From the NCBI GenBank assembly GCA_937944855.1, contig CALFAY010000013.1:62001-126000 (forward strand): a DNA stretch of 64,000 nt, written 5' to 3'. Origin of the DNA: an uncultured Planctomycetota bacterium. GTDB taxonomy: Bacteria; Planctomycetota; Planctomycetia; Gemmatales; HRBIN36. Under the pieces are notes generated by a model that had not been told where the DNA came from, ran no database searches, and was given only the letters and a program-made list of their open reading frames with translations. Below, one piece after another: positions 6,579 to 10,883 of the stretch; the first letter of the stretch is position 1, and every line of letters starts with the position of its first letter. A program made the position numbers and the translations under genes.

Positions 6579-6633
6579 TTGAATGGCCAGGCGGGTTCAG
6601 AGTCTCCAGAAAAAAATCCAAGGAGCACAGGGA

Positions 6634-7716
6634 ATGACGGAGAAGGTGGTCATCATCGGATCGGGACCGGCGGGCTGGACGGCGGCGATTTACACAGCCC
6701 GGGCGAATCTGAATCCGCTGGTATTCGAGGGGGCGATCACCGAAGAAAACAGACTCAAAGGCACGACGCCGCTGGGCCAGTTGAACCTGACCACCGAGGT
6801 CGAAAACTTCCCGACCTGGCCGCACGTCGAAACCGCCGTGCTGCAAGCCTTCGCCAGATCGGCCCTGCCTCCGGAGCGCTACAACAATCTGGTCGGGTTT
6901 TACGAGGGGAAACAGGCCCACCACGGCAAACGGGCAGCGTTCGGCCCGGAACTGATGGAGTTCGCCCGGCAGCAGGCAGCCAACTTCGGCACGCGCATCG
7001 TGACCGAGGACATCGTCCGGGTCGACTTCACTCGCCGGCCATTCAAGCTCTGGTCGTCTGGCGGACAGGAGATCGAAAGCCATGCCGTCATCATCGCCAC
7101 CGGAGCACGGGCCAATTACCTCGGTCTGCCTTCCGAGGAGCGCTTCAAGAACAACGGCGTGTCAGCCTGTGCCGTCTGCGACGGAGCTTTGCCCCGCTTC
7201 CGCAAGCGTCCGCTGATCGTGGTCGGGGGCGGAGATTCCGCCGTGGAGGAAGCGACTTATCTGACCAAATTCGCCTCTGTCGTGTATCTGGTGCATCGCC
7301 GCGACTCCCTGCGGGCCAGCAAGATCATGCAGCAGCGGGCCTTCAACAATCCCAAGATCACCATCAAGTGGAATCGCATCCTGGATGAGGTGCTGGGCAA
7401 CGACGAGGAAGGCGTCACCGGAGCGCGGCTGAAAAGCACCGTGGATAATCAGACCGAAGAGTTGCAGGTCAGCGGCGTCTTCCTCGCCATCGGGCACACG
7501 CCCAACACCGACTTCCTCAAAGGTCAGGTGCAGTGCGACGAGAAGGGTTACATCGTCTGGACCAAACCGCAGCGCACCTACACCAGCGTCGAAGGCGTGT
7601 TCGCCGCCGGCGACGTGGCCGACAGCCACTACCGCCAAGCCGTCACCGCCGCCGGCACCGGCTGCATGGCCGCTCTCGACGCCGAACGCTGGCTCGCCGA
7701 ACACGGTCTGGCCTGA
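6634..7716 (+). CDS. trxB: Thioredoxin reductase-like FAD/NADPH flavoprotein
   Basis: This enzyme should pass electrons from NADPH through FAD to thioredoxin. Visible elements are the FAD-binding GSGPAG (9-14), the redox pair CAVC at residues 179-182, the NADPH-binding [10 protein letters not shown] (198-207) and the C-terminal FAD segment [23 protein letters not shown]. The protein has 360 residues, roughly 40 more than usual. The extra residues lie at about 60-103 (after ENFPTWPH and before [13 protein letters not shown]), within the FAD domain. I chose the ATG at 6634 because AAGGAG lies 8 bases upstream and the family begins at this point. Thioredoxin itself is not nearby. Confidence 0.9.
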
Positions 7717-7802
7717 TCCGTTTCCTTCGGTCAATCGCTGCCAGCTGACAACCCCCCGCCCGAAGCTCCGTTCCGCGCTCCTATAATGGACAAACGAACA
7801 CT

Positions 7803-10800
7803 ATGGAGCGCGTACGCAGTCATTACTCCCTGTTGGAAGGCGTGAACAGTCCGGAGCAGCTCATCGAACGGGCTGTGCGGACCGGACACGACGTGCTCGC
7901 TCTGACCGACGTGAACAACCTCTACGGGGCGGTGAACTTCGTGGAAGCGGCGCGGCACCACGGCGTCCGGCCGATTCTTGGTTGTCAGCTCCGGGATGAG
8001 GCGAACCGCCAGCAGGCGTCGGTACTGATCGCCGAGCCGAGTGGCTACACGAGCCTGTGCCGCATCCTGAGCCGGTTGCATCTGCGACAGCGGCCGGTGC
8101 TGCTTGATCTGCTGCTGGAAAACGCCGAGGGGCTGCATGTGCTCGTGGATCGGGTGGACATGCTGCCGCCGCTGCGGGAGCGGTTCGGCAAGCGGCTGTG
8201 GGTGGAGATCGTGCGGCCGACGTTGCACCTGGATCGGCCTGTCTCCGCCGAGCGGGAGTTGCTGGAACTGGCTGAGCGGTGGAACGTGCCCGTCGTGGCC
8301 GGCGGCGCGGTCCACTTCGCCGAGCCGCACGGGTACATCGTCCACCGTCTGTTGACAGCCATACGTCACAGCGTGCTGCTCGACCAGTTGCCGCAGCGCT
8401 TGCCGGTCAGCGCCGAGCATTATCTGACCGATACCGAGACGCTTCGCCAGCGGTTCCGCGATCTGCCCGCCGCTCTTGTCAACCTCCGCCGTCTGGCCGA
8501 GCAGTGCCGCTCCGACGTGCTGCCCCGGGGCGTCACGGTTCCCCCGGCCAAGGTGCCGCGCGGCTGGACGGCGTTCGGCTTCCTGCGGGCCTTGTGCGAA
8601 CGCGGGCTGCGGCGCATCGCCGATGAAACGCTCCTTTCTGCCGCGGAAGAAACCTACCGTAACCGTCTGGCCGAGGAACTGCATCTGGTCCAACTTCGCG
8701 ACCTGGCCGACTACTTCCTCGTCGTGCGGGACATCGCCTTGTATGCCCGACGCCGAGGCTTGAGCATGGCCCTGCGGGGTTCGGCAGGCAATTCGCTGAT
8801 CTGTTTTCTGCTGGGCATCACCGACGTCGATCCGCTCCGCTTCGGCCTGCCGCTGGAACGCTTCCTGCACGCCGGCCGGCCCGATCTGCCCGACATCGAC
8901 CTCGACTTCGATTGGCGGGTCCGCGATCAGGTCATCGCCTGGGTGTTCCGCCGCTACGGGGCCGAACACACGGCCATGATCAGTTCGCACCTGTTTTTCC
9001 GACCGGCCCTGGCCTTCCGGGAAGCGGCCAAGGTGCATGGCTTGTCCAACGAGCAGATCAGCCATTTGCTCGAGGAGTGGGAACGGCGGATCACGGAAGA
9101 TGCTTCCACGGATGACCTGCTCCACTCCGCCCCGCCGCGGACATTCCCGCTGGAGGCTGAACGCTGGACGCGCCTGCTCGAAGATACCCGACGATTGCTC
9201 GGCAAACCGCATCATCTGTCCATCCATCCCGGCGGCGTGGTCATCACGCCCGGACCGATCGAAGACCACGTCCCGCTTCAGCGGGCCGCCAAGGGCGTCG
9301 TCATCACCCAGTTGGACAAGGACCCCATCGAGCGGATCGGGCTGGTCAAAATCGACCTGCTGGGCAATCGCGCCTTGTCCACGGTGGACGAGGCCCGCCG
9401 CATCCTGGCCGAGTGCAAGGCCCCAGTGGCCGAACCTGCCCCTTCGCTGCCGCGGCTCGGAAGCGAACAGGACGCGGTCACGCAGCGGGTCGTGGACCTG
9501 CTTCGCCGCGGCGAGACGCTCGGCGTCAATCAACTGGAATCGCCGGCCATGCGGCATCTGCTGGTGCAGATGCAGCCGAGAGGCCTGGAGGACGTGATTC
9601 AGGCCCTGGCCCTGATCCGCCCCGGAGCGGCTTCGATAGGAGCCAAGGAACGCTTCATCCGTCGCCGCCGTGGTCTGGAGCCGACCGTCTTCGACCATCC
9701 GCTTCTGGAACCGCTCCTGGCCGCCACCCACGGCCTGATGCTTTACGAGGACGACGCTCTGGGTGTGGTCCAGATCCTGACCGGCCTTTCGCCGTCCGAA
9801 GCCGACCACTTCCGCAAACGGGTGACGAAGACCCGCGATCCCCAGGAAGCGGCGACGTTGTCCCGTGCCTTTCTGGAGGCCTGTCGGCGTCATGGCGTGG
9901 ATCAGCAGTCGGCGGCGCAGGTCTGGGTGCAGTTGGCGAAGTTCAACAGCTATTCGTTCTGCAAGAGCCACGCCGTCAGCTACGGCCTGATCGCCTGGCA
10001 GGCGGCTCGACTCAAGGTCGTGCATCCGGCGGCGTTCTGGTGTGCCGCCCTGAACAACAACGAAGGGATGTATCCGCGGCGGGTGTATGTCGAGGCGATC
10101 AAGCGGGCTGGCATCCCGGTGCGGCTGCCCTGTGTCAATCGTTCCGGGAGAGTGTTTTCCGTCGAACCTCGGGAGGCTCAAGACGGCGGCGACGCCTGGG
10201 CGATCCGCACCGGCCTGGGACTGGTTCACGGTCTGGAAGAGGCAGCCGTCGAAGCGATCCTGGAAGACCGGCAGCGGCGTGGACCGTTCGCCGATCTGGA
10301 GGATTTTTGCCGGCGTGTTCCGATTGGCCCGGAGGCCCTGTCGCTGCTCGTCCACGCGGGAGCGTTCGATTTCACCGGCCGCAGCCGCCCGGAGCTGTTC
10401 CTCGAAATCGAGATGCTGACGAACGGAGGGCGTCGAACTTCTGGTCTGCCCTTCCCGGCTTGGATGCCGTGGTCTCCGGACGACTACTCCCCCCTGCGCC
10501 GCTGGCAGGGCGAATGGCACTGTCTGGGTTTTTTGACCGGCCCGCATCTCATGGCGTTGTTGCGTCCTCGTCTCCCCAGGGGAATCACCCCCAGCCGCGA
10601 TCTGCACCTGCACATCGGCCGCAAGGTCTGCGTCGCCGGTTTGGTCGCCACCGCCCGCCTGACGGAAACCAAGCACGGCGAGACGATGCAGTTCATGACC
10701 CTGGAAGACGAATGGGGCTTCGTCGATGTCACGTTCTTCCCTGGCACGTTCCCTACCGCCACCTATCTCGGTCTGGGACCGTATCTGGTCTGGGGCACGG

Positions 10801-10883
10801 TCGAGGAGCAGTACGACGTCGTCACCGTGACCGCCAGCCGCTTCGCCAGGCAGCCGATCTCACCCTGGCCCGACGACGCCTGA
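7803..10883 (+). CDS. DnaE-type DNA polymerase III alpha subunit (error-prone/DnaE2-like), PHP domain degenerate
   Basis: A C-family DNA polymerase of 1026 residues, nearer in size to DnaE2/ImuC than to replicative DnaE1. The polymerase core looks intact: RGSAGNSLICFLLGIT, the catalytic aspartates in PDIDLDF, and the third one in LVKIDLLGNRAL. The segment HLSIHPGG resembles the DnaE2 type. A helix-hairpin-helix region (about 800-860) and a C-terminal OB fold (GRKVCVAGLVATARL) follow. The N-terminal PHP domain has lost metal ligands: the usual HxH is RVR (VRSHYSLLEG), TDH is TDV, and GCE is GCQ. No imuA or imuB is adjacent. No good ribosome binding site precedes the ATG; a TATAAT at 7782-7787 lies just upstream but has no matching -35 box. 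DnaE2-like is the best fit; a separate planctomycete DnaE group is possible. Confidence 0.85.
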   Translation: MERVRSHYSLLEGVNSPEQLIERAVRTGHDVLALTDVNNLYGAVNFVEAARHHGVRPILGCQLRDEANRQQASVLIAEPSGYTSLCRILSRLHLRQRPVLLDLLLENAEGLHVLVDRVDMLPPLRERFGKRLWVEIVRPTLHLDRPVSAERELLELAERWNVPVVAGGAVHFAEPHGYIVHRLLTAIRHSVLLDQLPQRLPVSAEHYLTDTETLRQRFRDLPAALVNLRRLAEQCRSDVLPRGVTVPPAKVPRGWTAFGFLRALCERGLRRIADETLLSAAEETYRNRLAEELHLVQLRDLADYFLVVRDIALYARRRGLSMALRGSAGNSLICFLLGITDVDPLRFGLPLERFLHAGRPDLPDIDLDFDWRVRDQVIAWVFRRYGAEHTAMISSHLFFRPALAFREAAKVHGLSNEQISHLLEEWERRITEDASTDDLLHSAPPRTFPLEAERWTRLLEDTRRLLGKPHHLSIHPGGVVITPGPIEDHVPLQRAAKGVVITQLDKDPIERIGLVKIDLLGNRALSTVDEARRILAECKAPVAEPAPSLPRLGSEQDAVTQRVVDLLRRGETLGVNQLESPAMRHLLVQMQPRGLEDVIQALALIRPGAASIGAKERFIRRRRGLEPTVFDHPLLEPLLAATHGLMLYEDDALGVVQILTGLSPSEADHFRKRVTKTRDPQEAATLSRAFLEACRRHGVDQQSAAQVWVQLAKFNSYSFCKSHAVSYGLIAWQAARLKVVHPAAFWCAALNNNEGMYPRRVYVEAIKRAGIPVRLPCVNRSGRVFSVEPREAQDGGDAWAIRTGLGLVHGLEEAAVEAILEDRQRRGPFADLEDFCRRVPIGPEALSLLVHAGAFDFTGRSRPELFLEIEMLTNGGRRTSGLPFPAWMPWSPDDYSPLRRWQGEWHCLGFLTGPHLMALLRPRLPRGITPSRDLHLHIGRKVCVAGLVATARLTETKHGETMQFMTLEDEWGFVDVTFFPGTFPTATYLGLGPYLVWGTVEEQYDVVTVTASRFARQPISPWPDDA

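Follow-up and report, generated by a model that had tools for sequence, protein, structure and literature searches.

In the portions of the literature available to us, an inactivated PHP domain is the rule among DnaE2 polymerases (PMC3919608; PMC12926913), and the pattern given for this domain comprises nine positions, HHDHEH[C/H]DH (PMC12926913). About 77% of DnaE2 carry a C-terminal SRDF[H/R] motif (PMC3919608). The class termed DnaE2B occurs without ImuA/ImuB and is tied to Y-family proteins and RecA; this group is coupled to an inactive PolY of the gbDinB2 type and is widely spread (PMC12926913). The DnaE2B-PolY-RecA system of Bacteroidetes has two apparently active polymerases (PMC6511836; PMC12926913). 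Planctomycetes are among the phyla with both DnaE1 and DnaE2 (PMC3919608). In the text of the other two papers available to us, the single planctomycete mention of PMC12926913 concerns X-family enzymes, and in PMC6511836 Planctomycetes appear under another system, GeoPolY-ImuB-C; a planctomycete DnaE2-PolY pair was not described in the literature searched, supplements aside.

The window, by which we mean the whole 64,000-nucleotide stretch of planctomycete DNA analysed, contains a dnaE2-type C-family DNA polymerase gene at positions 7803–10883 (+ strand), an open reading frame of 1026 amino acids. We propose, with a probability of roughly 0.75, that its product is an accessory, non-replicative DnaE2B-like polymerase without PHP proofreading, which would perform damage-induced, error-prone translesion synthesis as the catalytic subunit of a DnaE2-PolY-RecA mutasome; the mutagenic activity, the complex and the SOS control are what we infer here.

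The locus resembles DnaE2B-iPolY-RecA systems with a gbDinB2-like PolY (PMC12926913; PMC6511836) in its inactivated PHP domain and in having no ImuA/ImuB, and again in a PolY bearing both a clamp motif and a RecA-NT motif, in PolY-dnaE2 pairs among relatives and in wide phyletic spread. It differs from them in that dnaE2 and polY are unlinked, that inactivation of the PolY is incomplete (ALDD for LDE, with the first Asp motif intact) and that the PolY tail in this genome ends in LRTPCLTR. With the Bacteroidetes system it shares a Y-family partner keeping most catalytic residues, but the phylum is another and the catalytic Glu is Asp in PolYs of the window lineage. Like ImuA-ImuB-DnaE2 (DnaE2A/ImuC), it combines an accessory DnaE2, a degenerate PHP domain and a Y-family helper that would bind the clamp and a RecA-fold protein; unlike that system, it comes from a genome without detected ImuA, ImuB or DUF6504, lacks the SRDF tail and falls in a separate clade. 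The domain order PHP, Pol3, (HhH)2, OB is that of replicative DnaE1 with PHP proofreading; however, the window protein keeps one of nine ligands against nine of nine, has no recognisable clamp motif and exists alongside a true DnaE1.

At the level of protein families, the DnaE superfamily model TIGR00594 of NCBIfam matches the window protein above its cut-off (2.2e-163), and the error-prone DNA polymerase model NF004225 matches below its own (1.8e-171). Between DnaE1 and error-prone DnaE, NCBIfam is undecided, with 574 and 573 bits, both under the cut-offs. In Pfam, PHP, DNA_pol3_alpha, the finger domain and HHH_6 exceed their cut-offs and the OB match is weak. An AlphaFold model built from a 32-row alignment (mean pLDDT 89.8) retains the DnaE fold, PHP domain included; among solved DnaE structures its best match is a Mycobacterium tuberculosis DNA polymerase (E 2e-62).

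The genome that holds the window (G000) is a draft of 3.99 Mb in 63 contigs, 94.46% complete. C-family matches in it number just two: the window gene and a DnaE1 on contig C22 (L002). A third, PolC-like match was not found in this genome; as the PolC models of NCBIfam match the window protein weakly, it is not of the PolC type. The sequence-only reading had left room for the window gene being the only replicative DnaE: another dnaE is present, with a complete PHP site, and judged from its sequence the window DnaE2 is not the replicase.

The PHP domain covers about residues 1–235 (7803–8507, + strand); the sequence-only reading dealt with 7803–8400, which is most of it. The three changes described there are confirmed, with RVR at residues 3–5, TDV at 35–37 and GCQ at 60–62. 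The loss is real, but it had been undercounted. Aligned to DnaE1 of the same genome, which has all nine ligands, the window protein reads R,R,E,V,Q,-,-,A,H at the nine HHDHEHCDH positions: eight are changed or in gaps, H171 alone is kept, and no ligands retained at shifted positions were seen in the alignment. Sequencing error is not the cause, since RVC, TDV and GCQ stand in the protein of G006, a genome of the same genus (87% identity). These positions are poorly conserved among the relatives of the window DnaE2. Matches to the pattern number 0–3 in the window clade (12 rows), 0–5 in other relatives (80 rows), 0–4 in the SRDF-type DnaE2 set (21 rows) and 1–6 in four named plasmid rows; in DnaE1 they number 5, 6 or 9 (7 of 8 rows scored, two of which lack part of the N-terminus and one of which is from E. 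coli). All nine ligands occur in no aligned row outside DnaE1. PHP proofreading is thus most likely absent from the window DnaE2, with one of nine ligands left, much as the sequence-only reading had supposed.

The polymerase site, by comparison, is intact, again in line with that reading. Aspartates D364 and D366 with the conserved D368 (8892–8906, + strand) and the third catalytic aspartate D518 (9354–9356, + strand) are kept in 125/125 aligned rows, an alignment that left out L169, a Bacillus plasmid PHP protein, and L039, which was not extracted. A dead PHP domain beside a live polymerase is, on these alignments, the general state of DnaE2-type proteins. Where other DnaEs carry their beta-clamp motif (residues 880–887; 10440–10463, + strand), the window protein reads SGLPFPAW, without QxxLF or xLPLF, within a low-confidence loop of the model (residues 877–888). 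By pattern, the motif is found in none of 12 window-clade DnaE2 rows, some of which retain a bare LF, MF or IF, and in 36 of 80 other relatives. Its absence fits recruitment through PolY.

A quick SH-aLRT tree of 54 rows, hand-picked from the 125 and containing no DnaE3 rows and no named DnaE2B reference, places the window protein within a 37-row clade (support 99*). The SRDF-tailed DnaE2 (ImuC) side splits off at 98* and DnaE1 at 100*, in agreement with the DnaE2-like identity first proposed and adding a third clade beside SRDF-tailed DnaE2. The C-terminal SRDF is missing from all 12 window-clade rows and present in 18 of 21 DnaE2A rows. The window protein thus shows the traits of the DnaE2 class: it is additional to a DnaE1, combines a degenerate PHP domain with intact aspartates and lies outside DnaE1, whose clade and canonical clamp motif it lacks. 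Of the DnaE2A/ImuC traits, imuA and imuB were not found and the SRDF[H/R] motif is absent; of those of DnaE2B, no detected imuA/imuB and a co-occurring PolY with a RecA-NT-like motif are both present. The window protein would accordingly belong with DnaE2B, a label drawn from clade composition in a tree without a named DnaE2B.

Among 198 genomes of the class, window-type polymerases (46–87% identity) occur in ten besides our own, making 11; the remaining genomes match at 28–35% only, with DnaE1 or SRDF-tailed DnaE2 where tails were read. A wider scan took one genome per species, for 84,980 species, and kept the best 80 loci. These come from Planctomycetota first, then from Acidobacteriota, Thermodesulfobacteriota, Neomarinimicrobiota, Nitrospirota, Gemmatimonadota, Myxococcota and others.

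The gene had been said to stand alone next to trxB. This holds for the neighbourhood: trxB (6583–7716, + strand) ends 86 bp upstream of dnaE2, and the downstream ORF, which presumably encodes a carbon-nitrogen hydrolase, is by appearance no polymerase accessory gene. It does not hold genome-wide, as a candidate PolY partner lies on contig C9. We do not count trxB in the system; among 24 loci compared it adjoins dnaE2 only in the same-genus L003, and we rejected it as a functional partner.

Elsewhere in the genome, the PF00817 search finds a single Y-family protein, that on contig C9, and there is one RecA (contig C5). The absence of ImuA/ImuB first noted around the gene extends across the draft: a Burkholderia ImuA query matches the RecA locus only, and an ImuB query gives no match in five clade genomes (G000, G006, G004, G060, G078) and matches in all five positive-control genomes with SRDF-tailed DnaE2. 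DUF6504 (PF20114, ImuB-C), which we take to be the C-terminal domain of ImuB, is found in none of 41 relatives and, among 14 controls, in Caulobacter only, as would be expected; we rejected a standalone ImuB-C as a third part. Two proteins have a LexA DNA-binding domain. One of them, L172 (G000:C20:10730-10909), lies in an open frame of 216 amino acids whose remainder is unlike the LexA peptidase domain. The separate proofreading exonuclease suggested by the sequence-only reading finds no support, PF00929 (RNase_T/DnaQ) having no match in this genome and matches in 10 of 14 control genomes. Because the DnaE1 PHP site is complete and no RNase_T/DnaQ match was found, proofreading of replication in this organism likely falls to the DnaE1 PHP domain only.

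The PolY on contig C9 (L024:679-2052) has a QTDLF clamp motif and a RecA-NT-like C-terminus, the latter recognised by eye after the available text of PMC6511836. Both features, the clamp motif in a QxxLF-like form, are kept in nearly all PolYs compared. Y-family polymerases use D, D and E residues in catalysis. The PolYs L064, L066, L067, L069, L074 and L078 have D..DE; L070, L076 and the window lineage have D..DD; most Thermodesulfobacteriota PolYs have lost these carboxylates. The change from D-E to D-D is found in 12 of 12 window-lineage orthologues, with the first Asp motif kept, and D-E stands in all 18 other class PolYs looked at. All 11 orthologues complete at the C-terminus end in RTPCL[ST][RK]; similar tails occur in the linked planctomycete PolYs L064, L066, L067, L070 and L076 and in none of the 18 further PolYs of the class that were inspected. 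After KQAK, the C9 PolY has some 21 residues without counterpart in the ten aligned linked relatives.

Orthologues of this PolY (at least 230 bits, 46–93% identity) are present in 11/11 class genomes with a window-type polymerase and in 1/187 without (198 genomes; Fisher p = 3.5e-17, which overstates independence since the genomes share ancestry). The next best near-full-length match reaches 209 bits and 38–39% identity. The exception, G156 (88% complete), has the PolY without any kind of DnaE match. The PolY match of G004 and that of G196 are each split in two. In the same-family genome G004, polY lies directly upstream of dnaE2, and a tblastn search with the C9 PolY places a homologue there in many of the best 80 loci. 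By profile search of the same 80, counting loci with room for it (at least 1 kb upstream of dnaE2), PolY immediately precedes dnaE2 in 37 of the 53 that lie outside the window sub-clade, across several phyla, goes undetected in the other 16, and is upstream in none of 11 within the sub-clade. Co-occurrence and the arrangement in relatives make the C9 PolY the likely partner of the window DnaE2. In order mates, polY adjoins a presumably truB-like gene; among nine loci no conserved repair gene was seen beside polY, and this candidate was rejected.

Among the best 80 loci, lexA is present in 27. A DUF72 gene is present in 19 of the 80, often within lexA-PolY-dnaE2 cassettes of relatives. A Desulfosarcina ovata plasmid carries, one after another, lexA, DUF72 (L163, 991-1797), an ORF whose product has QRPLF and a C-terminus resembling RecA-NT, and dnaE. 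The literature found for DUF72 together with lexA and DnaE2 does not contain the term DUF72.

An operator-like palindromic site, TGGACAAACGAACA (7787–7800, + strand), lies just before the dnaE2 start and overlaps a -10-like TATAAT (7782–7787). It matches 9/10 positions of TGT[AT]C-N4-G[AT]ACA (shuffle p = 0.007), a motif first noticed by eye and then scored, partly on the sequences from which it had been defined. The palindrome is kept in G006 as TGGACAAAAGAACA. Another, TGTTCAAAAGAACA, overlaps the promoter-like sequence of polY, scoring 10/10 in G000 and G006 with its form conserved. Seven other polY promoters reach 8–9/10 (L134, L135 and L140 not located). The dnaE2 promoters range over 6–9/10, several relatives having only 6–8 (L062, L082 and L083 not located), and six other window promoters taken as controls score 6–8/10. 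This common site suggests that polY and dnaE2 may be co-regulated. LexA control is not established, because the genome's own recA (7/10, p 0.77) and lexA (8/10, p 0.22) are no better than chance in shuffles and several dnaE2 promoters score 6–8.

A search for dyads of any kind in four G000 promoters returned one trivial common repeat. The strict palindrome pattern occurs at seven sites in the genome, against two for a reversed control. One of the seven, L182 (G000:C3:21307-21320), precedes an ORF with clustered cysteines that we take to be an SplB-type radical SAM protein; no obvious repair gene follows the other strict sites. Between the TATAAT and the dnaE2 ATG lie 15 bases (7782–7805), so few that the transcript may have almost no leader.

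We now propose how the parts could act together. DNA damage would relieve a LexA-like repressor at the matching operators of dnaE2 and of the unlinked polY. The C9 PolY would bind the beta clamp through QTDLF and RecA through its C-terminal RecA-NT-like motif, and would recruit DnaE2, which has no recognisable clamp motif. DnaE2 would then extend past the lesion without proofreading. A more specific version, tentative and rather doubtful as a whole, is a split two-polymerase planctomycete mutasome in which DnaE2, having lost proofreading site and clamp motif, would rely on PolY; in this PolY, Asp would have become fixed in place of the catalytic Glu, and the conserved C-terminal tail RTPCL[ST][RK] would dock DnaE2. 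Such a system might be intermediate between an active PolY and dead helpers of the ImuB kind, with RecA replacing ImuA, both polymerases kept and both loci under one operator family.

That the PolY co-occurrence merely reflects shared inheritance in one lineage, DnaE2 acting alone or with another partner and PolY independently, is unlikely in our view. In its favour, the two genes are unlinked in this genome, none of the 11 sub-clade loci has an upstream PolY, the 11 genomes are related, and polY of order mates sits by a presumably truB-like gene and not by repair genes. Yet the genes are adjacent in the same-family G004 and in 37/53 outer loci of several phyla, the operator-like site is common to both, and 18/18 other PolYs of the class that were inspected lack both this PolY's tail and its E-to-D change. 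There is a small chance that the PHP domain is catalytic through different residues, as another nuclease or a phosphatase. Its fold is intact in a confident model, and PMC4822814 deals with the E. coli PHP domain as a pyrophosphatase; against this, eight of nine ligand positions are changed or in gaps, with little conservation among relatives.

Very improbable is a second faithful replicative polymerase served by a separate exonuclease, as DnaE1 is in alpha-, beta- and gamma-proteobacteria. E. coli DnaE (L170) does depart from the nine-ligand pattern as well (R,H,D,F,E,H,G,D,R), its proofreading being supplied by the epsilon subunit, according to the available text of PMC3919608. But a DnaE1 with complete PHP is present, the window protein lies outside DnaE1 at 100* without a recognisable clamp motif, and we rejected this arrangement for want of any PF00929 match in the genome. 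Least probable of all, at a very slim chance, is that the system is ImuA-ImuB-DnaE2 after all, with imuA and imuB lost in assembly gaps. A draft of 63 contigs at 94.46% completeness would allow it, but the ImuB query fails in all five clade genomes and succeeds in all five with SRDF-tailed DnaE2, and the window protein has no SRDF tail and sits in another clade; on the five clade genomes it was rejected. We therefore retain the accessory DnaE2B-like polymerase as our preferred reading.

A dead PHP domain without ImuA/ImuB, which had looked like an oddity, is expected for the DnaE2 class (PMC3919608 and PMC12926913, in the text available) and would be the normal state of one DnaE2 class. The new detail is a concrete candidate partner on another contig, dnaE2 being alone only locally. 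With partners ranging from D..DE through D..DD to lost carboxylates, the path from an active PolY to a catalytically dead helper becomes testable. Within one genome, a division of labour is suggested, in which DnaE1 with its complete PHP domain would be the probable proofreader and DnaE2 would work without one.
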